Shown here: positions 2,852 to 23,629 of the stretch, one piece after another
Position numbering within the stretch: the first letter of the stretch is position 1
Layout of the letters: each line of letters opens with the position of its first letter
DNA from: a virus
Reading direction: 5' to 3' (one strand)
IMG/VR virus record: IMGVR_UViG_3300019886_000026
Coordinates: 1-23,913 of that record
Length of the DNA: 23,913 nucleotides
Program-made: the position numbers and the translations under genes
Notes under the pieces: generated by a model
Told to the model about the DNA's origin: nothing
Seen by the model: the letters and a program-made list of their open reading frames with translations, nothing else
The model's database searches: none

Positions 2852-3357
2852 TCGGTGTCTCCTGTGGTGTCGGTGGTGGTGAGTTCGGCTACTTGGCGTT
2901 CGATGGCTTCGCGGCGTTCGGGGGTTGCGGTTCTCCATTCGGTTTTGAGGGTGGCGAGCTGGTCGGCGGGGATGGCCTCGAGGGGTTCGACGACGAACAT
3001 GGCGGACTTGCCACGGCTCACGAGGAGCGGGAGGCGGCGCGGTTTGGCGAGGTGGGAGAGGTGGCTGATTCGGGTGCCGCCGACGTCCATGCCGCCGAAC
3101 CGCACCGCGGGGTCGCAGTAGAGGGTGACGCGGCGGCCCGTGTAGGTGGCGGCGTCGGGTCCCCAGCAGAAGACCAGCACGCGCCTCATCGACTTGCCGG
3201 GGCGCCACACGCGGGGGAACTCGGCAAGCTCGATCTGGACGGGCTGCTCGGCGTTGCCCGCGGCGACACCGGTGATGGTGAATGTCCTTGGTCCCGCGAT
3301 GAGGTCGACGGCGTCGAGCTGGTCGGAGACGGGCGCGATGGTGTCGGAGATGTCCAC
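2848..3357 (-). CDS. Early protein beside YqaJ exonuclease, possible recombination partner
   Basis: This 169-residue protein has a GTG start one base after the exonuclease stop. It opens MDISDTIAPVSDQLDAVDLI and contains a compact beta-rich core (about 20-125) with GPRTFTITGVAAGNAEQPVQ, WRPGKSMRRVLVFCWGPDA, VTLYCDPAVRFGG and ISHLSHLAKPRRLPLLVSRG. A charged helical tail (126-169, RREAIERQVAEL) follows. From memory, this type occurs as an unnamed conserved protein near exonuclease genes of actinophages. In two-gene phage recombination systems a YqaJ or lambda-type exonuclease is normally paired with a single-strand annealing protein, and no RecT, Erf or Bet homologue is visible here. This gene fills that position, so a DNA-binding or annealing role is a reasonable guess. 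It is not demonstrated by any motif I can see. Confidence 0.75.
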   Translation of the reverse strand: MDISDTIAPVSDQLDAVDLIAGPRTFTITGVAAGNAEQPVQIELAEFPRVWRPGKSMRRVLVFCWGPDAATYTGRRVTLYCDPAVRFGGMDVGGTRISHLSHLAKPRRLPLLVSRGKSAMFVVEPLEAIPADQLATLKTEWRTATPERREAIERQVAELTTTDTTGDTE

Positions 3358-3358
3358 G

Positions 3359-4039
3359 TCAGATCACCATGTCCTGGTAGATGGTGCGTTCGGTCACCGG
3401 GAGCCCGACAGTGGCGGTTTCGTAGTCGCGGATCATGGCGGCGGCGTTCTCCTCGAACTTGACGCACGCCTCGACCATCGCGTCGTGCCAGACGGGGTCC
3501 GGGAGGACGCGGGTCCACCACATCGGCATGCCGCCGGAGTAGGACACGAAGTCGATCCACTCGCGCCCGGACACGAGCAGCGCGGCTTGGCATTGTGCGG
3601 CGTGTTCGGCGGGGACCTGGCCGCCGAGGATGGTGCGGAGGTGACCTTTTGCCCGGGGCGCTTTGACCTCGATCAGGCCGAGGTCACCGACGACGCCGTC
3701 CGGGGAGTAGCCGAGCGACCAGCCGTCGCCGGACCGGACCATGAATCCGACTTCCCGAACGCGACGGCGGGTGACCTCGGCGTACAGGTCGCGGGCGCGG
3801 GCCTCGTCTTCGATGCCGCGGAGCATGTCGTCACCGACGTAGGTGGGGTCCGTGTAGCCGGTGATGCGTTCGGCGACGAGCAGCGCAGTCAGGCCGCGCA
3901 CCTTGTCGTTGTTGGCGACCTTGAGTGTCGACGGGGTGACGAGCTGTCCGACGGTGGAGGCGGTGACGAGGCCGCGGCGCTGGTCGTGCCACTGGTCGGT
4001 GCCCTGGATGACGTCCGGGTACTCGGTGAGGGTGCTCAC
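3359..4039 (-). CDS. YqaJ-like phage exonuclease/recombinase nuclease
   Basis: The 226 residues carry the PD-(D/E)xK layout of the YqaJ/lambda exonuclease family: an N-terminal GTDQWHDQRRGLVTAS helix region, RGIEDEARARDLY (74-86, with the conserved Glu77 and Arg81), SPDG with Asp114, IEVKAP with Glu124 and Lys126, and AAQCQAALLVSG (147-157) with the paired Gln residues. In this family the Asp and E-x-K bind metal for 5'-3' digestion of double-stranded DNA, producing tails for strand annealing. The start is a GTG at 4039 overlapping the upstream stop (GTGA); longer in-frame extensions are Arg/Pro-rich shadow. It sits in the middle of the early operon, with a candidate partner protein immediately downstream. 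Confidence 0.88.
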   Translation of the reverse strand: MSTLTEYPDVIQGTDQWHDQRRGLVTASTVGQLVTPSTLKVANNDKVRGLTALLVAERITGYTDPTYVGDDMLRGIEDEARARDLYAEVTRRRVREVGFMVRSGDGWSLGYSPDGVVGDLGLIEVKAPRAKGHLRTILGGQVPAEHAAQCQAALLVSGREWIDFVSYSGGMPMWWTRVLPDPVWHDAMVEACVKFEENAAAMIRDYETATVGLPVTERTIYQDMVI

Positions 4040-4317
4040 TGGCCCACCTTGGGGACGAAGTCGAGGCTCGGCCGGTCGTCGGCCTGGTGGATGAGGTGTT
4101 CGCCCTCGGCGACCATGGTGTCGTAGAGCCCGGGGAAGCCGGCGACGATGGCCCCGACGGATGCTGCTCGGGTGGCGAACTGGTCGGCGTGGATGAGGGG
4201 TGTGCAGCGCGGCGGCGCGGGCTTGTCTGCCAGCCACTGGTCGAATCGGCCGTAGGCGTAGGCGCGGGCAAGTTCGCGGATGAAGTAGTAGGGGGAGTCG
4301 TACGCGGGTTCGGGCAT
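4036..4317 (-). CDS. Small early protein upstream of exonuclease, unknown
   Basis: A 93-residue acidic-to-neutral protein (MPEPAYDSPYYFIRELARAY...). It has no membrane segment and looks helical, with an aromatic N-terminus (YYFIRELARAYAYGRFDQWL) and a central Ala/Gly-rich part. The ATG at 4317 is preceded by AGAGGAC at usable spacing and, further upstream, by a CAG-triplet run (see findings). Its stop overlaps the GTG of the exonuclease gene, so the two are co-translated. No family is recognised. Position argues for an accessory role in early DNA metabolism. Confidence 0.7.
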   Translation of the reverse strand: MPEPAYDSPYYFIRELARAYAYGRFDQWLADKPAPPRCTPLIHADQFATRAASVGAIVAGFPGLYDTMVAEGEHLIHQADDRPSLDFVPKVGQ

Positions 4318-6178: not shown

Positions 6179-6364
6179 GTGAACCCGTTCCGCTCGAGCT
6201 GGCGCGTCATGACCCTCATCACCATCGGCCCGGTCACCGCGGTCGTCGTGGGTGTCGTGCTCGTGCTCGGCGCGCCGGACTGGTCCCAGGACGCTTCCTA
6301 CGGCGGCACACCCGTACCACCAGTCGTCACCCAGCAGCACGGCTGGACCCACACCAACCGCTAG
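6179..6364 (+). CDS. Small single-TM protein, unknown
   Basis: The 61 residues start at a GTG with a strong AAAGGAG site 4 bases upstream. Residues 11-32 are hydrophobic (MTLITIGPVTAVVVGVVLVL) and predict one transmembrane helix or an uncleaved signal anchor. The short remainder (APDWSQDASYGGTPVPPVVT) is polar and Pro/Gly-rich and probably lies outside the membrane. It has no lipobox. It sits between a hairpin and the pentapeptide-repeat gene in the rightward cassette. It is the second clear membrane protein of the cassette, which fits an envelope-directed function by inference only. Confidence 0.7.
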   Translation: MNPFRSSWRVMTLITIGPVTAVVVGVVLVLGAPDWSQDASYGGTPVPPVVTQQHGWTHTNR

Positions 6365-6380
6365 CAGCAGAAAGCAGACC

Positions 6381-7139
6381 ATGACCGACCACGTGAACCT
6401 TCTGGAACTCATCGCCGCCGACTACACGATGCCGAAAGGCTACGACCGGTGGCTCATCCGGTCTGTGCGACCTGATCTGCGGTCTTCGCGCGGGTTCCGC
6501 TGGCCGTACCCGGGCGGCGTTGCTCGAGCAGACGGGCCTTTCGAGGCGGACAACTCGGGGGGCTGCCCGAGCGCCGTGGGCGACGGGATTTGCGCCGCCA
6601 CGAACTGGGCTGGCATGTCTTCCGGCGGTATCCCGGCGGTGACGCTGTTGCTGGTCGCCGTCAAGACGGGCGACATTCTCGGGCACGAAGAGGGCGAGTC
6701 CAAGTTGCGGTTCAAGGCCGCCAAGGTGGTGGACGTCATCGACGGCACCCAACTGTTGAAGGAGCGCGGGGCCAACGCGGACCTCAGCTCGGCGGACCTC
6801 AGCTCGGCGAACCTCCGCTTGGCGGACCTCCGCTTGGCGGACCTCAGCTTGGCGGACCTCCGCTTGGCGAACCTCAGCTTGGCGAACCTCCGCTCGGCGG
6901 ACCTCCGCTCGGCGAACCTCCGCTCGGCGGACCTCCGCTCGGCGAACCTCAGCTCGGCGGACCTCAGCTTGGCGGACCTCAGCTTGGCGGACCTCAGCTC
7001 GGCGAACCTCCGCTCGGCGAACCTCAGCTCGGCGAACCTCCGCTCGGCGAACCTCAGCTCGGCGCCTCACGGTAACGCCAACACCCACCTGCCCAGCGGC
7101 TGGTCAGTCAACAGCGACGGCCTGATCGTTCCAGACTAG
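6381..7139 (+). CDS. Pentapeptide-repeat protein with unique N-terminal domain
   Basis: The 252 residues start at the ATG at 6381. Residues 1-132 form a globular domain without repeats (LLELIAADYTMPKGYDRWLI; WPYPGGVARADGPFEADNSG; then a hydrophobic strand AVTLLLVAVKTGDILGH and KVVDVIDGTQLL). Residues 133-227 are 19 uninterrupted five-residue units of the form A(D/N)L(S/R)(S/L), the signature of right-handed beta-helix pentapeptide proteins. A short tail (PHGNANTHLPSGWSVNSDGL) follows. Some members, such as MfpA and Qnr, mimic DNA and bind gyrase, but many others have no known role. The DNA-level regularity suggests recent amplification. It is the last gene of the cassette and is followed by a hairpin terminator. 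Function is unknown; a host-directed or decoy role is an inference. Confidence 0.85.
   Translation: MTDHVNLLELIAADYTMPKGYDRWLIRSVRPDLRSSRGFRWPYPGGVARADGPFEADNSGGCPSAVGDGICAATNWAGMSSGGIPAVTLLLVAVKTGDILGHEEGESKLRFKAAKVVDVIDGTQLLKERGANADLSSADLSSANLRLADLRLADLSLADLRLANLSLANLRSADLRSANLRSADLRSANLSSADLSLADLSLADLSSANLRSANLSSANLRSANLSSAPHGNANTHLPSGWSVNSDGLIVPD
6777..7061 (+). repeat. 19 tandem 15-bp units encoding pentapeptide repeats
   Basis: Every unit has the form GCG (G/A)AC CTC (AG/CG)C T(C/T)G. Variation is confined to three sites, each with only two states, which toggle Asp/Asn, Ser/Arg and Ser/Leu. Codon choice is otherwise identical in all 19 units, unlike the rest of the gene. All six frames remain open here because of the repeat structure. 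Confidence 0.9.
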
Positions 7140-7396: not shown

Positions 7397-7695
7397 GGTG
7401 CCTCCGGTTCCGCCGCGGGATTGGGGTCGAGCCCTTGCACTGGCGCGAGGATAGCGCCGAACGCCGCTGGTGGCGCGACGCGGTTCCGCGGCCCGACGAC
7501 GACGCCGGTGGTGGCGGCCGCGATGGGCAGCAGCGCGAGCAGGGCCGTCGCCCACGTCGGCAGGGTCACCCCTGCGCCCTCGAGCGCGACCAGGACCGCG
7601 GCAGGCGGGATGCCGAACAGCGCGACCAGCCACGCCTTGGCGTGCGTCTCGAGCACGCTGAGCGCGCCGATCGGTCCGCCGTGCTGCCCTCTCAC
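7393..7695 (-). CDS. Holin candidate (two membrane segments)
   Basis: The 100 residues start at a GTG overlapping the endolysin stop (GTGA). There are two hydrophobic segments: about 21-40 (AWLVALFGIPPAAVLVALEG) and 48-67 (WATALLALLPIAAATTGVVV). A short Gly/Pro turn lies between them and an Arg-Asn-Arg (PRNR) follows, with a polar Pro-rich tail. Size, topology and position directly after the endolysin gene match two-TM phage holins, which permeabilise the membrane to release endolysin. The single-TM gene at 9105-9338 is a competing or cooperating candidate. Sequence identity to a named holin family cannot be checked here. Confidence 0.6.
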   Translation of the reverse strand: MRGQHGGPIGALSVLETHAKAWLVALFGIPPAAVLVALEGAGVTLPTWATALLALLPIAAATTGVVVGPRNRVAPPAAFGAILAPVQGLDPNPAAEPEAP

Positions 7696-8411
7696 GAGGC
7701 GATCCGCGCGGCGAGCAGGTCGGCCACGGCTTTGGCGATGGCCGCGACGTCCACGACAGCGACGGGCGCCACGTTGGCGGCCTTGAGCGCGTCCACCTCA
7801 GCCTTGATCTGCGGCACCGCGCGGAACACGTCGCCGACGTTCACGTAGTCGCCGGTCGCGACCGTGCCTGCCGGATTGCCGCCGGTGACCAGGATGTTGT
7901 AACGCATGAACAGGGCGACGTCATCATTCGTGGTTGCCACATCTGCCTCCGGTGCCGGGTCTACGCCTGGCCAGTAGTCGGCGACGCTGGATAGGTCCCA
8001 GGCCGCCGTGTTGGTGTGCTGTTTCGCGACCGCGCCCGCGGGGATCGCCGGGTTCTTGTCGTACTTCGCGATCCAGTAGTGCGGCTCGGGGATGCCCGCG
8101 TTCTGGAACGCCGCGCGAACCAGCGGCCACGTGCTGTAGTTGCAGTAGACGGTGGGGTCCGCGCCGGCTGCTCGGCGTGCCGCGACCCAGGGGGGTGCGT
8201 CGGCCGGTGTGGGCATGTTGGCGCCGGACTCGACGTCGAGGACGTGCCCGCGGCGGTCGGCGGCGCGGACGGAGATCTCGACCTTGCTCGCGTTCGGGAA
8301 GCGGTCCCACTCGGCTTGTGTCCACGCGTACGGGCCGTTGATGTAGCCGGCGACCATCGTCGCGGTGGCGGGGATATTCGCCGGGGAGACGGCGTCGTAC
8401 ATGGTCCGCAT
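7692..8411 (-). CDS. Endolysin, glycoside hydrolase 25-like lysozyme domain
   Basis: The 239 residues show a TIM-barrel lysozyme-like domain in residues 1-150. It opens with MYDAVSPANIPATATMVAGY, contains a DVESG strand (D59, E61, the usual acidic pair), PTVYCNYSTWPLVRA, HYWIAKYD (111-118) and AKQHTNTAAWDLSSVADYW. This layout matches the GH25/DUF1906-like muralytic domains of actinophage LysA proteins, which cleave peptidoglycan glycan strands. A C-terminal region (about 160-239) with an Ala/Val-rich helix (VDVAAIAKAVADLLAARIAS) probably serves wall targeting or oligomerisation; no known binding motif is visible. There is no signal peptide, so export depends on a holin. AAAGG followed by CAG triplets precedes the ATG. 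An ATG three codons further in is an alternative start. Confidence 0.8.
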   Translation of the reverse strand: MRTMYDAVSPANIPATATMVAGYINGPYAWTQAEWDRFPNASKVEISVRAADRRGHVLDVESGANMPTPADAPPWVAARRAAGADPTVYCNYSTWPLVRAAFQNAGIPEPHYWIAKYDKNPAIPAGAVAKQHTNTAAWDLSSVADYWPGVDPAPEADVATTNDDVALFMRYNILVTGGNPAGTVATGDYVNVGDVFRAVPQIKAEVDALKAANVAPVAVVDVAAIAKAVADLLAARIAS

Positions 8412-8448: not shown

Positions 8449-9108
8449 TCACGTGCACACGTACTGCGGATCGCCGTCGTTCGTATCGGCTGCCGCCCGG
8501 GTGCATTCGTGCTGGACGCCTAGCGCGTCCGTGTAGCCGTACGCGGACAGAACGGGGCCCGGAGGCCCGGTGGCCCCGTCGACGCCGTTGGTGCCGTTAG
8601 TGCCGGGGTCGCCCTTGACCGACACGCCGGGGTCGCCCTTCGGGCCGGTGGCACCCGTAGCGCCGGGTGTCCCGTTAGTGCCCGGTATCGGGGCAGGGAT
8701 GAGGGGCTTGATCAGGGAGAACAGAAAGTCGGTAGAGGGTGCTGGGCCGACCGCACCCGTATCGCCTTTTGGGCCGACAGCGCCACCGGGCCCCATCGCG
8801 CCCGTGGCGCCCGCCTGTCCTGGTGAACCTGGTGCTGGCGCGCTGGCCACGGGTGTGCCGCCGAGGTCCTGGACCTGCTTGGAGAGCTGTTGCACCGCCG
8901 AGTAGGCGGATTGCGCGGTCGCGTCCGAGGTGGTGAGCTGCGTCTTCGCGTCGGACAGTCGGGTGGCGAGCACGAAACCGAACGCGGTGAGGCCGAGCAC
9001 CCCGACCAGCATGATGGCCATCCCGGCGAAGAACCACCTGTGCGACGCGTCATCGCGTGCGTCGTCCGCCGCGGGCTGGACGACGGTGCGATCGATGTCA
9101 CCCGTCAT
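8449..9108 (-). CDS. Membrane-anchored collagen-like protein in lysis block
   Basis: The 219 residues contain a cytoplasmic N-terminus (1-24), one transmembrane helix (about 25-48, WFFAGMAIMLVGVLGLTAFG), a helical or coiled-coil stalk (50-85, SDAKTQLTTSDATAQSAYSA), then two collagen-like G-X-Y blocks (about 93-125 and 143-185; examples GSPGQAGATGAMGPGGAVGP and GTNGTNGVDGATGPPGP) split by a hydrophobic insert (FLFSLIKPLIPAPIPG). The tail holds two Cys near the end (ECTRAAADTNDGDPQYVC) that could form a disulfide outside the cell. Both ends of the gene fit the operon: its ATG overlaps the upstream stop by 4 bases. Collagen-like proteins are common in phages, but a membrane-anchored one beside an endolysin could be a lysis or envelope protein. 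That role is inferred. Confidence 0.75.
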   Translation of the reverse strand: MTGDIDRTVVQPAADDARDDASHRWFFAGMAIMLVGVLGLTAFGFVLATRLSDAKTQLTTSDATAQSAYSAVQQLSKQVQDLGGTPVASAPAPGSPGQAGATGAMGPGGAVGPKGDTGAVGPAPSTDFLFSLIKPLIPAPIPGTNGTPGATGATGPKGDPGVSVKGDPGTNGTNGVDGATGPPGPVLSAYGYTDALGVQHECTRAAADTNDGDPQYVCT

Positions 9109-17721: not shown

Positions 17722-18083
17722 GTCAAGCTCGCTTCCACGGTGAATTGGTAACAGGGGTAGTCGGTGCCGCCGTTGGAGATGGTCGCCGGGGCCGCGGTCG
17801 TGACGGCCATGTAGTTGAGCACGTCGATCGCCTCGGACACCGCGGGGACCAGCGGGAACAGGGCCTCTAGCGGGCGTTCGGAGAAGTCGGCTATCAGCCA
17901 CACCGTGAACGTCGCAGTGTCGGGCTGCTCGGCGTACACCGCCCAACCCAGTGTCGGCGGCGACACCATCACCCCGGGCGGAGACACGATGTCACCAGGC
18001 TCGCTGTAGATCCGGACGCCGGGGATGCCGGACACGGCGGCCACCAGCGCGTTGAACGCGTCCCCGATCACGCTGCTCGTCAT
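17718..18083 (-). CDS. Tail terminator-like protein
   Basis: The 121 residues (MTSSVIGDAFNALVAAVSGI...) have the typical layout of small tail terminators: an N-terminal helix, a strand GVRIYSEPGDIVSPPGVMVS, a central strand TATFTVWLIADFSERPLEAL, a helix (VSEAIDVLNYMAVTT) and C-terminal strands (YPCYQFTVEASLT). Position, directly before the major tail protein and after a connector gene, fits. In lambda-like phages this protein caps the tail tube and joins it to the head. Coupled by ATGA to the preceding gene. Confidence 0.65.
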   Translation of the reverse strand: MTSSVIGDAFNALVAAVSGIPGVRIYSEPGDIVSPPGVMVSPPTLGWAVYAEQPDTATFTVWLIADFSERPLEALFPLVPAVSEAIDVLNYMAVTTAAPATISNGGTDYPCYQFTVEASLT

Positions 18084-18436
18084 CCGAGCACCGCCAGGGC
18101 GAAGCGTCCGATGCGGAGTAGCCGGTCGATGTCCGGGTCGAACGTCGACACCCTCGCCGCGCCCATGTCGCCGAGCTGGACCATGCCGTCCGGGGACTGC
18201 TGGCGCCGTACATACCGCGCGGCGAGGCGGATGGTGCCGAGCATCAGCGCCGGGTCCGACTCGGGGTCCGGCAGCAGCACGAGAGGGTCGTGCGCGTAGT
18301 TGAACAGGGGCCGCTGGTCCTGGACGAACGACGCCGCCGCGCCGAGCTCCGCAGTGATGCGGGGGTCGTCGCGCGCGTCGTCGAGAGCGATCTTCTGATC
18401 GTTCTTGTAATCGTCCAGGACCGGCGGCCAGCTCAC
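18080..18436 (-). CDS. Head-tail connector protein candidate (gp6-like)
   Basis: The 118 residues (MSWPPVLDDYKNDQKIALDD...) are mainly helical, with RDDPRITAELGAAASFVQDQ, DPALMLGTIRLAARYVRRQQ and a C-terminal end RLLRIGRFALAVLG. Short four-helix proteins of this kind (HK97 gp6 and relatives) form the ring beneath the portal. It lies after the capsid gene and before the terminator-like gene, as expected. The start is a GTG overlapping the previous stop (GTGA). Recognised by pattern only. Confidence 0.65.
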   Translation of the reverse strand: MSWPPVLDDYKNDQKIALDDARDDPRITAELGAAASFVQDQRPLFNYAHDPLVLLPDPESDPALMLGTIRLAARYVRRQQSPDGMVQLGDMGAARVSTFDPDIDRLLRIGRFALAVLG

Positions 18437-18602: not shown

Positions 18603-18839
18603 TCAGGAACCTCCGTCTACTGCGGACGGGTCGAAACCGGCCACGATCCGGCCAGCCGCCGCCTGCGCTTCTGCCTGGGTGCCGAACTCGCCCTTGAGGA
18701 TCGCCGTCGAACCTGAGACCCCGAGCTGTGCGAGCGTGACGAACCAGGGGTCGCCGCCGTTCTGTGCGCCGGCCGCGACGTTGAACGCGTCGCGGCGCAC
18801 CCAGTTTCCGCCTGCGGTTTCGAGCCAAACGTCGCCCAT
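18603..18839 (-). CDS. Small protein directly after capsid fusion, unknown
   Basis: The 78 residues (MGDVWLETAGGNWVRRDAFN...) share one base with the stop of the fusion gene. The sequence is compact and mixed alpha/beta (GGDPWFVTLAQLGVSGSTAI, then LKGEFGTQAEAQAAAGRIVA). It lies where a capsid accessory or head-decoration gene is often found. It looks folded rather than a linker. No homologous family is recognised. Confidence 0.65.
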   Translation of the reverse strand: MGDVWLETAGGNWVRRDAFNVAAGAQNGGDPWFVTLAQLGVSGSTAILKGEFGTQAEAQAAAGRIVAGFDPSAVDGGS

Positions 18840-21800
18840 CAGGGGGTCACGGTGTGGCGGATGGCGGCGAGGCCGCGCGGGCGCAGCAGCCGGGTCGCGG
18901 AGTAGCCGAACAGCGCGAGGTCGATGTTCGCCGGGCCGCTGCGCTCCTCGAACCGGAACGTGAGGAGACCGGATTCCCAGTACCACACGTCGTTCGAGTT
19001 GAACATGAGCACGTCCGCGTCACCAGCGGCGTTGCCGGTCATCGACCAGGCGGGCTGGAACGCGAGCCCGTCGACGTACCAGCCCTGCGAGATCGCGTTG
19101 CCGAGCCCGGTCGCGTTCTGCGCACCGATGCTCGGGAGCAGCGGACGGCCGTCAGAACCCGATGCGGACGCGAGTGCCGAGGTGGCTTCCTGCGACATGA
19201 GGGCCCGGTTCGGCGAGGCGAAGCGACGGAACGGGTACAGAGCCTCGGCGGCCCGGATGCCCGCGAGCAGCTTTTCGCCGCCCTGGGTGCCGGTCGTCGA
19301 GACGGTCGCGCTGGCCTGCGCACCGGACGGGACGAACCCGGCGGTGATGGTGCCAGCCTGGCCGTTGGCGCCGTTGAGCTCGGCGTACACCTTGGCTTCG
19401 GTCTGCTGGGAGTAAGACTCCTGCATGGCCTGCATCGCGATCGCGTCGATCGCCGGGTTGCTCGAGTCCATGATCTCGCGGGTGAGCTGGAACACGCCGG
19501 AGATGGCGCCCGGGGTGACCGTGACCGTGCCGATGGTCAGGGTGCCCGACGTCGGGTTGGTGCCCTCCGTGTGCGTGCTCGTCATCGACGCCGCGGAGGT
19601 GAATGACGGCAGTGTGAACGGGGTCGCGTCGGTCAGGGTGCCGCGGGACACCGAGTTGACCAGCGGGCGGCCCTGCATGAGCTGGGTGACGTACAGCTCC
19701 GGCCGGTAGCCGGGCGGGATGACGGCGGCCGCGTTGCTGGTGTTCGCCGCGCCGAACGTCAATTCGTCCGCCGCGAGCTGCGCAGCGTCCTGCGTCTGCT
19801 TGGTGAACTTCGCGAGCCGGTCACGGGCATCGGAGTCGCCCTCGGTGCGGGCCTTCCACGCGTCCTTGACCATCGAGTGGCCGTGACCGTTCATCGCGTA
19901 CACGGGGGCTTCCCGGGTCACGGTGGCGCGGCCAGCGCGGACAACGTCGCGGCCGCCCGGCTCGAGCTGGGGTGTCGGCAGTGCGGCGATGGCGTTCGTC
20001 ATCGCGGCGGTGAACGCGGCCTCAAGGCCGGCGGTGAACGTGGCCATGTCCGGCAGCGTCGCGCCGGCCGGGGCCGGCGGGGTGACGGCCGGAGCCGGGG
20101 GAGTGACGACCTCGGGCATGGTGGGTGCTTCCTCTCGGGAGGCGACAACCGCTGCCACTCTGGCAGCGTCGAAAGCGGGCATCGCGGTCAGGGCGACCGC
20201 GACAAGGGTGGCGGAGGAGACGTCGTACGCGCCGGTCTGCTCGTTGTACTCCACGGCGTCCTCGGGCGAAGAAAACTCGACCTCGACGGACATGCCGTCG
20301 TATACGTGGTCCTCGGCGGCGAACAGCATCTGGTCGCCGAGGGTGCCGCGGCCGACACCGAACGCGGCGTTGAGCCCGGTCGCGGTGCTGGTCAGGGACT
20401 TAGCGGCGGCGAACGACTCGTCGCGGTTGTGGTCCTTGTTCAGCTTCACCCGCGACACATCCGACGACCAGTGCAGCGACCCCGGCGCGAAGGACCACTT
20501 GCGGCCCTTGCTCATCGCCGGCGTGTTCCAGGGGATCACCTGCCCGGAGATGGTGCGGCGCTCACTCGACGCGGCGAACGACTCGGTGCCAGTCGGGAAG
20601 TCGAACCGCAGAGTGCCATCCGTGGCGGCGTCGAACGTGACCGGGACGCCGTCGCGCGCCCACCGGCGACCGGGGATCACGGCGTCGTTCATGAACGCGA
20701 TGTCCTGGTCGCGCATGTGCGCGGCCGCGGCGACCGGGGTGCGCTGGTTCCCCGGCGGCGGCGACTTCACCGGCGCCGCCGGGGCGGGCACCGCCGGGAC
20801 CTCGGGGGTCACGACCGGGACACCAGCGGGAACAGGGGCGATCTTGGCATTCGGAATCCACTCCTCCTCGGCGATCCGCTGGTCGTCGTACGCGCCGACA
20901 CCGCGGCCGGCGGCGTAGACCTGCATCCGGGTGAGGGTGTCGGACCGCAGGAAGCCGGTGTAGTCGAACCTCACGGTGACGTTGCGGGGGCACACGTCGT
21001 TCATCGACAGTCGGCCCTCGACGGCCGACACGTACGCGGCCAGCACGAAATCGATCAAATCGAGGCGCCGCATCTCGGCGTTCGCGTACGTCTTCGAGTT
21101 GATCGCCACGCCGAGTTCTTCGGGGTCCAGCCCCACCAGCCGGGCTATCTCGAGCACGAGATAGTCGCGCTGCGCCGCGAGCTGGAGCTGCTCCGGGGAC
21201 CACGCGAGGGTCTTCAGTTCGACGGCGGCACCGACGTAGCCGGTTGCCCGACGCCGGCGGGTGGTCTCCCACTGGTCGAGCATGTCGTCGACTTTTTCCG
21301 GGGGCTGGTCAGCGACGCCGTCTTTCGGGGCGAAATACGACAGCGGGGGGATGCCGTCGATGCTGTTGCCCGCGGAGATGCGGAGCTTGATCGCCGCGCG
21401 GATGGTCGCCGCGCCGGCCTCGAGGAGCGCGTCGTGCGGGGACTCGAAGCGAATCAGCTCGGCGTCCGGCACCCACTGCCACGCGCCACCCTGGGTGTGC
21501 CGGTCCGGGTCGATATCGGACGTGTACACCTGCCAGTTCTTCCGGATCGTGACCGACAGCGGGTCGAGCCGGCGCACCTCGGTGGGGTAGCCGTCGAACC
21601 CGAACTTGGTGATCCGCCACCATGAGTACTTGTGGAACAGCAAGTCCTCGAGCACGTGCGTCATGCTGATCGACCGGGCGTAGTCGTGCTCCGGCTGCCC
21701 GAGCAGGGACGCCGTCGAGCCGGTCTTGAGCCGCTCGCGGGTGTCGAGGTTGTACGCGCGGAGCGGGAGCACGCCGAGGGTGCCGCAGATCAGGTCCCGG

Positions 21801-22015
21801 GCGCGCTTCACCGCCGGCACGGACATCGCGGCGCGCCGTTCGACGCGCGGCTCGAGCCAGCCGTCGATGCCGACGGACGCGCCGTTCGTCATCTCCGGCG
21901 GGATGTCGAGCTGGAAGTTGAGGGGCGACACGCGCGGCGGCCGCGGCTCGGCGGGGCGCGAGGCCTCGACGGTGGGGTAGTTCTCCCCGAACGTCCAGAG
22001 GTCTCGAAGTCGCAT
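18839..22015 (-). CDS. Portal-prohead protease-major capsid fusion (single 1058-residue reading frame)
   Basis: One uninterrupted frame holds three normally separate head proteins. Residues 1-400 are a portal (RRAAMSVPAVKRARDLICGT; ARSISMTHVLEDLLFHKYSW; AQRDYLVLEIARLVGLDPEE; INSKTYANAEMRR). A Pro/Ala linker follows (about 395-430). Residues 485-630 are a U35/S78-type prohead protease (RRTISGQVIPWN; KLNKDHNR with H529; DGMSVEVEF with S576; VALTAMPAFDAARVAAV). Residues 633-1058 are a delta-like N-terminal segment (Pro/Ala-rich, then AAFTAAMTNAIAALP) and an HK97-fold capsid protein (PPGYRPELYVTQLMQGRPLV; GVFQLTREIMDSSNPAIDAI; a C-terminal RFEERSGPANIDLALFGYSA). Known phages usually encode these as two or three genes. 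Portal is needed at 12 copies and capsid at hundreds, so processing or internal initiation seems needed. The start at 22015 lacks a clear ribosome site. The frame is certain; how it is used is not. Confidence 0.9.
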   Translation of the reverse strand: MRLRDLWTFGENYPTVEASRPAEPRPPRVSPLNFQLDIPPEMTNGASVGIDGWLEPRVERRAAMSVPAVKRARDLICGTLGVLPLRAYNLDTRERLKTGSTASLLGQPEHDYARSISMTHVLEDLLFHKYSWWRITKFGFDGYPTEVRRLDPLSVTIRKNWQVYTSDIDPDRHTQGGAWQWVPDAELIRFESPHDALLEAGAATIRAAIKLRISAGNSIDGIPPLSYFAPKDGVADQPPEKVDDMLDQWETTRRRRATGYVGAAVELKTLAWSPEQLQLAAQRDYLVLEIARLVGLDPEELGVAINSKTYANAEMRRLDLIDFVLAAYVSAVEGRLSMNDVCPRNVTVRFDYTGFLRSDTLTRMQVYAAGRGVGAYDDQRIAEEEWIPNAKIAPVPAGVPVVTPEVPAVPAPAAPVKSPPPGNQRTPVAAAAHMRDQDIAFMNDAVIPGRRWARDGVPVTFDAATDGTLRFDFPTGTESFAASSERRTISGQVIPWNTPAMSKGRKWSFAPGSLHWSSDVSRVKLNKDHNRDESFAAAKSLTSTATGLNAAFGVGRGTLGDQMLFAAEDHVYDGMSVEVEFSSPEDAVEYNEQTGAYDVSSATLVAVALTAMPAFDAARVAAVVASREEAPTMPEVVTPPAPAVTPPAPAGATLPDMATFTAGLEAAFTAAMTNAIAALPTPQLEPGGRDVVRAGRATVTREAPVYAMNGHGHSMVKDAWKARTEGDSDARDRLAKFTKQTQDAAQLAADELTFGAANTSNAAAVIPPGYRPELYVTQLMQGRPLVNSVSRGTLTDATPFTLPSFTSAASMTSTHTEGTNPTSGTLTIGTVTVTPGAISGVFQLTREIMDSSNPAIDAIAMQAMQESYSQQTEAKVYAELNGANGQAGTITAGFVPSGAQASATVSTTGTQGGEKLLAGIRAAEALYPFRRFASPNRALMSQEATSALASASGSDGRPLLPSIGAQNATGLGNAISQGWYVDGLAFQPAWSMTGNAAGDADVLMFNSNDVWYWESGLLTFRFEERSGPANIDLALFGYSATRLLRPRGLAAIRHTVTP

Positions 22016-22072
22016 GATCGAGAGAGTACAGCCAACCGGCGGCAGACCGGACGCGCCGAGTCCGTTTCGTGT

Positions 22073-23629
22073 CTACCGTGCCCGACCAGCCCGGATGAAC
22101 AGCTCCGGAGGCGGCGGCGGCAGTGTCCGGGCTAGGTGCGTCGCGCCGGCGGCCGCGTACGTCCCGTCGACATGCAGACCAGCCTTGTGCCGGGTGAAAC
22201 GCCACGCGTCGCCCTGCCGGAGCTTCTCCGCGGCGGCGACGTGCGCGTTGAGCATCTGGTCGTCGGAGTGGGCGATCTTGTGCGCCGCGACCTGTTCGGC
22301 GAACCCCATGCACACCGCCGTCACCGCGGCCTTGAGTTCCTCCACCTCGACCCCGAACGGCGGCCACGCCTCGAGCGTCCCCGCGGCACCCCGCTCGGCC
22401 ATATCCGCCGCGAACGCCGCCGCCGGACCCGACGGGAACCAGCCGAGCTTGCGGGGCTTCACCCTCCGCACCCACTCCGGGAGTTCCACGCGCATCGCCT
22501 CGACCGACGTCCACGACGCGAGCGGCTCGACCCGCACACGGCCGTCCCGGAGCAGCGCCGCGGCCACCAGTGACGCGTGCTGCCCGTCCATCGAGACGTC
22601 GATGCAGCACGCCACCGACGACCGGTACTCCTCGAGGTCCCCAAGCTCGAGGCACGCCGTCCACGCCTCCGCGTCGATCGCCGGGTCGAGCATCTGCACC
22701 CGCATGCACATGATCTCGGTCTTGAACCCCGCGAGTTCCTCCCCGCCGGCCTCCTCGGCGCGCACCGCGTCACCGAGCAGCGCGTCGAGGTCGATGCGGT
22801 GCCCGAGGTTCGGGTTGGCCATCGCGAGGGCCTCGACGTCCGTCGGCCGGGACCCGTCCGGCGCCGAGTACTCGAAAATGGCCAGACGAGAGTCGCCCAC
22901 GCCGGTCTCGATGAACGCGATAGCCGAATTCCGCGCCGAGTCGAGCACGACGGACTTGTCGTCGCCCTGGTTGCTGATCAGCCACGCTTGGGCCATCCGG
23001 ACAGCGTTCATCGCGGGCATCGCGGCATTCCACGCCGACCAGTCGTGGTGCTCCCGGAGTTCGTCCATGATCAGCCGCGCGATCGTGAGGGACCGGCCAC
23101 CCTTGCGGTTCGACGCGGCGATCTTGTACCGCGACTTGATCCGCTGGTTGTGCGGGTTGACCAGCGACAACCTCTGCTCGCCGTTCGCGCGCCGGATGCC
23201 GCCCTTGGGTATCTCTGCGGCGATTTCGTCGGTGTCCTCCGCTAGCATCACGGCCTTTTCCCACGACTCGCGGGCGTAGTCGAGGTTCGTCGACGTCCCC
23301 AGCACCAGCCCCACGTAGTCGATGTGCAGCCAGAACAGCGCGAGGATGACGAGCAGCTCCGTCTTGCCGTTCTGCCGCGCGACCAGCACCAGGACCTGTC
23401 GGAACCTCGGGCGGCCGTCCTCGAGCAGCTCGAGCGCGTGGATCACCACCCACTCTTGCCACCGGTCCAGCGGCCGGCCGAGCACGTCCCGGGCGAAGTC
23501 GATGACGTCGAACCCGTCCGTCGTGGAACGGTCAAGCTCACGGAGCGGTTTCGTCCAGAGGCGGGGCACCGCGCTTCCCAGCACGGCGGGCGCGGAGTTC
23601 GTCGCTAGCGGATTGCTTGACTGGTCCAT
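22073..23629 (-). CDS. terL: Terminase large subunit
   Basis: The 518 residues show the terminase ATPase and nuclease. The ATPase has a Walker A-like ARQNGKT (84-90) and a Walker B LIMDE (186-190), with an adenine-side motif DRWQEWVVIHALELL upstream. The nuclease begins at about 340 (CCIDVSMDGQ, with D344 and D348 as likely metal ligands) and ends with AHSDDQMLNAHVAAAEKLRQ. The enzyme cuts concatemeric phage DNA and pumps it through the portal. The assigned ATG (23629) is preceded by GGGGCAGCAGG and overlaps the small-subunit gene by 92 bases. GTG codons 15 and 20 residues further in are possible shorter starts. It precedes the portal fusion directly, as usual. Confidence 0.9.
   Translation of the reverse strand: MDQSSNPLATNSAPAVLGSAVPRLWTKPLRELDRSTTDGFDVIDFARDVLGRPLDRWQEWVVIHALELLEDGRPRFRQVLVLVARQNGKTELLVILALFWLHIDYVGLVLGTSTNLDYARESWEKAVMLAEDTDEIAAEIPKGGIRRANGEQRLSLVNPHNQRIKSRYKIAASNRKGGRSLTIARLIMDELREHHDWSAWNAAMPAMNAVRMAQAWLISNQGDDKSVVLDSARNSAIAFIETGVGDSRLAIFEYSAPDGSRPTDVEALAMANPNLGHRIDLDALLGDAVRAEEAGGEELAGFKTEIMCMRVQMLDPAIDAEAWTACLELGDLEEYRSSVACCIDVSMDGQHASLVAAALLRDGRVRVEPLASWTSVEAMRVELPEWVRRVKPRKLGWFPSGPAAAFAADMAERGAAGTLEAWPPFGVEVEELKAAVTAVCMGFAEQVAAHKIAHSDDQMLNAHVAAAEKLRQGDAWRFTRHKAGLHVDGTYAAAGATHLARTLPPPPPELFIRAGRAR

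Follow-up and report, generated by a model that had tools for sequence, protein, structure and literature searches.

In the head module of phage HK97 the gene order is portal (gp3), protease (gp4), and then delta domain and capsid (gp5), with portal, protease, and capsid encoded by three separate genes. In phage lambda (C/Nu3), the scaffold is translated from a start codon nested within the protease gene. Fusions between head genes have also been described, including a scaffold-protease fusion mentioned for lambda (PMC5513430), and protease-capsid and protease-scaffold-capsid fusions, seen both in Arthrobacter clusters AM, AU, and AN (PMC5513430) and in small-genome actinophages such as Microbacterium EE (PMC7302621). 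The protease-scaffold-capsid form in small actinophages extends to Arthrobacter AN, AX, and FE (Maggie, Decurro), Microbacterium EE, Gordonia CW and DM, and Rhodococcus RRH1 (PMC7302621; PMC5513430); these phages have a separate portal gene, sometimes with lysin genes in between. The portal is likewise joined to another head protein in the portal-MuF fusions described in Microbacterium phages (PMC7302621), where the partner is MuF rather than protease and capsid. No description of a portal in frame with protease and capsid, or of an internal capsid start in protease-capsid fusions, was found in the open-licence literature, and a phage collection search returned no record covering 80% of the query. 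As far as searched, then, the protease-scaffold-capsid fusion is already known, while the version that includes the portal is undescribed.

The locus considered here lies in a complete IMG/VR record of 23.9 kb (IMGVR_UViG_3300019886_000026), all 23,913 nucleotides of which were analysed and are referred to as the window. Positions 18839–22015 form one uninterrupted open reading frame on the minus strand (as are all features below unless noted), running from ATG to stop and encoding a portal-protease-scaffold-capsid protein of 1058 amino acids (113.6 kDa predicted). The original prediction, made from the sequence without database searches, had recognized a portal, a U35-type protease, and an HK97-type capsid in this frame, joined by Pro/Ala-rich linkers, and this description holds. 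Profiles from Pfam and NCBIfam recover these three domains in the same order, and the structure prediction then proposed as a check, an AlphaFold model using an alignment of 54 fused proteins, has three folded parts separated by low-confidence linkers (residues 404–475 and 620–684) with a Pro plus Ala content of 35–38%. Third-codon G+C is 0.84–0.98 from end to end of the frame; a single coding frame thus spans both junctions, and nothing points to a frameshift. The PHROG family phrog_2263 ('major head protein') covers residues 474–1056 as one match, since protease-capsid fusions are reflected in that family.

The neighbouring genes have the order of an ordinary siphophage: upstream lies the terminase large subunit (22073–23629; phrog_9, 1.5e-73), and downstream follow a head-tail connector protein (18080–18436; phrog_5938), the major tail protein, and the tape measure. 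No Rfam families or tRNAs were found in the window. Elsewhere in it are a pentapeptide-repeat protein (6252–7139, plus strand, whereas the head and tail genes are on the minus strand; PF00805, 1.5e-20) and a collagen-like Gly-x-y repeat protein (8449–9108, minus strand), which adjoins a possible glycosyl hydrolase 25 gene (7692–8411) whose profile score is below the cut-off.

The portal part comprises residues 1–403 (20807–22015) and is folded from about 55 to 400. It is an HK97-type portal by profile and by fold, with PF04860 matching residues 67–377 (1e-25; 90.8 bits against a curated cut-off of 39.1) and Foldseek matches in the PDB to 3kdr (TMt 0.78) and HK97 8fql (TMt 0.70). Linker 1 (residues 404–475; 20591–20806) is Pro/Ala-rich and predicted to be disordered. 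The protease part (residues ~476–630; 20126–20590) is termed S78-type rather than a family member by profile, because PF04586/S78 (residues 485–628, 1e-3) scores 19.3, just below the curated cut-off of 21, and TIGR01543 scores 17.7 against a cut-off of 59. Its assignment to the S78/U35 type comes instead from a proheadase-like fold, with a BFVD match to a proheadase fragment (TMt 0.73), together with His529 (codon 20429–20431) and Ser576 within a DGxS motif (codon 20288–20290). Both residues, candidates for the catalytic pair, are invariant in 54/54 fused proteins, consistent with an active protease. Residues 633–700 (19916–20119) form a scaffold/delta-like segment with one predicted helix (657–678) and, by analogy with HK97, may act as a scaffold. 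The remainder (residues ~701–1058; 18842–19915) is an HK97-fold major capsid protein by profile and fold: PF05065 matches residues 765–967 (1e-11; 44.9, cut-off 24.2), TIGR01554 scores 30.8 (cut-off 27.5), and Foldseek against the PDB returns HK97 and its relatives (2ft1, TMt 0.74).

The locus therefore resembles HK97 in its gene order, its portal and capsid folds, and the scaffold-like segment at the capsid N-terminus, but places in one frame what HK97 keeps as separate genes. It shares with the small-actinophage fusions a setting in actinobacterial small-genome siphophages, a related portal and protease, and a single gene that joins protease to HK97-type capsid through a scaffold segment, but has its portal in the same frame rather than in its own gene. 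NCBIfam NF045541 is a model naming such a protease-scaffold-capsid fusion, and the window protein does not match it.

Relatives were collected by scanning viral and genome contigs and classing loci by profile hits per reading frame. Of 105 loci that have all three parts, 68 carry them in one frame, a ratio that is not a prevalence since a fused query was used to draw the sample, chiefly its 80 best viral matches out of 320 and a further 22 in genomes; a few loci are mutual copies, and 90 members are non-redundant. The three-part order, which the original prediction had thought much rarer than two-part fusions, is thus common in this actinobacterial family, and the outcome named in advance as counting against the fusion, a region always split in related phages, does not hold. 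The remaining 37 loci have a separate portal gene followed by a protease-capsid fusion, which often overlaps it by 4 or 8 bases. Protease and capsid share a single frame in 105/105 loci and are apart in none. In more distant relatives from Amycolatopsis plasmid records the genes are separate (likewise in Pseudonocardia, for protease and capsid only). Named isolates with the fused form are Amycolatopsis roodepoortensis (DSM 46661), Actinophytocola, Labedaea, Prauserella, Nocardioides, Kribbella, Micromonospora, and Salinispora, with prophages among those in Amycolatopsis, Labedaea, Nocardioides, Kribbella, and Micromonospora, and an uncultured 1201-residue 'portal' in BFVD (A0A6J5S481) may be another fusion. 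In Kribbella jiaozuonensis, two scaffolds (L095 and L106) apparently carry two near-alike fused modules, judging by identical match scores. At another locus (L057, 2454–4300) an insert of ~1.8 kb separates the portal from the protease-capsid gene and contains a minus-strand pair of open reading frames (3019–3666 and 3666–4187) of unknown function.

That the window is a single metagenomic virus contig could suggest an error of assembly or sequencing, or a prophage in decay. Such an origin is vanishingly improbable: metagenomes and isolate genomes alike contribute to the 68 loci that share the fusion with intact domains, and its recurrence there, named isolate genomes included, together with the uniform third-codon G+C, rules out a sequencing error or hidden frameshift.

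A fused frame of this kind raises a stoichiometry problem, which the original prediction identified and which is real: about 12 portals are needed per head, against hundreds of capsid subunits. Two answers had been offered, cleavage by the built-in protease and an internal start for the capsid. Self-cleavage is plausible from the sequence, and because the portal is part of the full-length chain, cleavage would be required to release it. In a true polyprotein, the full-length chain would be the only product and would be cut to equimolar portal, protease, and capsid, with surplus portal and protease discarded. The single open frame, the active-looking protease, and low-confidence Pro/Ala linkers well suited to cleavage all agree with this scheme; no shared cleavage motif of the two linkers was evident by eye in the alignments. 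Such a scheme would, however, be wasteful, and it leaves unexplained a set of conserved features at the protease/capsid junction, described below, that is found also where the portal has a gene of its own. We regard it as improbable.

These features centre on an in-frame ATG (M633; 20117–20119) with a Shine-Dalgarno-like site, GAGAGGAAG (20128–20136), 8 nt before it. M633 lies in the second low-confidence linker, ahead of the scaffold-like helix, and would begin a product of 426 amino acids (residues 633–1058; 18839–20119; 44.2 kDa) carrying the scaffold/delta-like segment and the capsid; the predicted mass of the trimmed capsid is ~38 kDa. In the window the Shine-Dalgarno energy at M633 is -6.0, and the site is within the 2.3% least structured positions of the frame. 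In-frame start codons were scanned in the 90 non-redundant members by pairing the 16 upstream bases (to 4 before the start) with the anti-Shine-Dalgarno sequence, using a duplex energy threshold of -5.5 kcal/mol or lower and an interval of +2 to +20 codons past the protease domain; expected counts came from same-size intervals elsewhere in the same frames. An ATG passing the threshold follows the protease in 77/90 members (3.1 expected), comprising 48/58 fused members (2.0 expected) and 29/32 split members; the other 13 lack such an ATG, and some of them have a GTG. The residues flanking the start vary while the Shine-Dalgarno site is kept (SREEAPT/M, EKKENPA/M, TDQKGAT/V, and MQEEGGK/M, the stroke marking the start). 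Among cultured phages, Decurro, Penoan, and Adaia have a similar site 7–8 codons past the protease domain, which in Decurro falls at codon 160 of the protease-capsid gene; no clear internal site was found in Schiebs or Emperor, and McGonagall has a weak candidate only.

Shine-Dalgarno strength was set aside as sole evidence for an internal start. A synonymous codon redraw still reaches the threshold in 62/90 members, because the local residues (R/K/E/G) are purine-coded, so strength by itself is weak evidence, and third-position G+C and RNA structure were tested independently. The case rests on these two properties and on position. Once amino acid and the codon use of each frame are allowed for, third-position G+C drops by 0.18–0.38 from codon -9 to codon -2; pooled over codons -9 to -1, z is -19.1 for all members, -17.0 for fused members alone, and -9.7 for split members. 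Codon -1 is normal, +1 and +2 are slightly low, and later codons are normal. In the window alone this signal is modest (6 G/C against 8.0 expected). Predicted folding of 50 nt of RNA at the internal start averages -8.9 kcal/mol, compared with -15.8 in the same frames, and structure is weaker than the frame mean at 83/83 sites. Start codons inside folded domains that pass the same threshold served as a control against bias from choosing sites by their Shine-Dalgarno pairing, and these have normal structure (-16.9 kcal/mol, against -9.2 at the internal start) and a third-position G+C change of +0.34 per nine codons, against -2.20. The comparison thus shows, at the level of sequence, an in-frame start codon with a ribosome-binding signature under selection, giving strong comparative support to the second of the two answers.

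The purine-rich, A-rich, unstructured stretch might instead reflect a constraint on the protein, such as a cleavage site or hinge, or some other nucleic-acid signal. A protease might well be expected to cut at the protease/capsid junction, and, as the redraw indicates, R/K/E/G-rich residues yield Shine-Dalgarno-like DNA on their own. Yet the third-position effect persists after amino-acid correction and stops near the ATG, with codons from +3 onward normal, and Met is kept at its column in 40/54 fused proteins although its neighbours vary; a constraint of this kind is very unlikely to be the source of the signal. In many relatives, though not in the window, the product of the internal start opens with a CxxC motif (MPCQQCGN, MECDKCGH; seen in L003 near 7216 and in L020, L021, L038, L043, L079, L085, L095, L096, L098, L105, L107, and L109), possibly a small metal-binding element at the scaffold N-terminus.

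A start may also have been retained at the portal/protease junction. A start preceded by a Shine-Dalgarno site occurs in this linker in 47/58 fused members against 19.4 expected, with a recurring form in which (P/Q)EET is followed by GTG, ~20–30 codons ahead of the protease; many split members have an ATGA overlap with a similar CAGGAGG-type site. Third-position and structure signals are weaker here yet present (GTG z = -5.1, ATG z = -2.2). A quick-method tree of 88 rows, built on protease and capsid together, requires at least 6 changes of the fused/split label, so this junction has switched repeatedly; the tree is unrooted, which leaves gain and loss indistinguishable. These observations suggest that the fused and split forms interconvert when a translationally coupled junction loses or gains the portal stop and keeps its ribosome-binding site. 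The frame might then behave as an operon without stops, with initiation at both junctions producing nested portal-protease-capsid, protease-capsid, and capsid chains. This reading extends, and does not oppose, the use of M633, and it is a minority possibility here: it may hold in relatives, but the window candidates (V409, M434, and M442) are weak or structured. V409, the sole linker candidate passing the threshold, has a folding energy of -25 kcal/mol (97th percentile of structure), so that RNA structure seems to block its signal, and the Shine-Dalgarno site of M442 is weak; because V409 is heavily structured, a third product is not claimed for the window.

At the beginning of the frame, no Shine-Dalgarno site precedes the window's portal ATG. 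A -10-like hexamer, TACTCT (22023–22028), lies 7 nt before it and could belong to a leaderless promoter. TANNNT is present 6–7 bases before the candidate portal start in 29/55 fused relatives, compared with 0/1015 in-frame starts inside portal domains at that spacing, which points to a leaderless promoter; one is therefore probable, from sequence, between terminase and portal, at 22016–22028 in the window. In split relatives the hexamer precedes the portal start in 2/28 and a Shine-Dalgarno site in 24/29. A link between fusion and a leaderless portal start was rejected, as the two are not phylogenetically independent (6 independent pairs, median p = 1). Two relatives (L050 and L096) have short inverted repeats (CTTGTAGGAATCTCACAAG and CTTGTAGGGATCCGACAAG) just upstream of the proposed -10, possibly the operator of a regulated head promoter.

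Taken together, the head module of this actinobacterial siphophage is a shared stop-free frame for portal, protease, and scaffold-capsid in which a start signal before the capsid part has been kept, and we consider the following account of its expression probable. The portal ATG, lacking a Shine-Dalgarno site and possibly leaderless, would yield a small amount of the full-length chain, and M633, with its conserved Shine-Dalgarno site in an unstructured stretch, would yield the scaffold-capsid protein in bulk. The protease would reach the procapsid on full-length chains, cut the portal from itself, and trim the scaffold segment off the capsid subunits. If the leaderless start is real, its weak initiation and the Shine-Dalgarno-driven initiation of the capsid would set the ratio of the two products. 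We infer ribosome use of M633, the resulting capsid excess, and the cleavages, including release of the portal. As in lambda C/Nu3, a nested in-frame start in the protease gene is predicted to give a second head product; unlike the lambda product, which is scaffold only, it would carry the capsid, and the outer product carries the portal too. A more speculative extension, to which we give a low probability, is that the full-length chain is an assembly device, with 12 chains forming the portal ring, bringing protease and the earliest capsid subunits to the portal vertex, and nucleating a head that capsid from the internal start completes. Were this true, the fusion would help to ensure that each head has a single portal vertex and is loaded with protease.

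In summary, a single gene for portal, protease, and capsid is found in a widespread group of phages, and the conserved start codon ahead of the capsid part offers a concrete answer to how unequal amounts of these proteins could arise. If this explanation is true, a nested capsid gene can lie hidden behind the annotation 'capsid and protease fusion' in actinophages, and the full-length portal chain would tie portal incorporation to protease loading and head nucleation in a way that can be tested. The isolate prophages and cultured relatives make the explanation testable.
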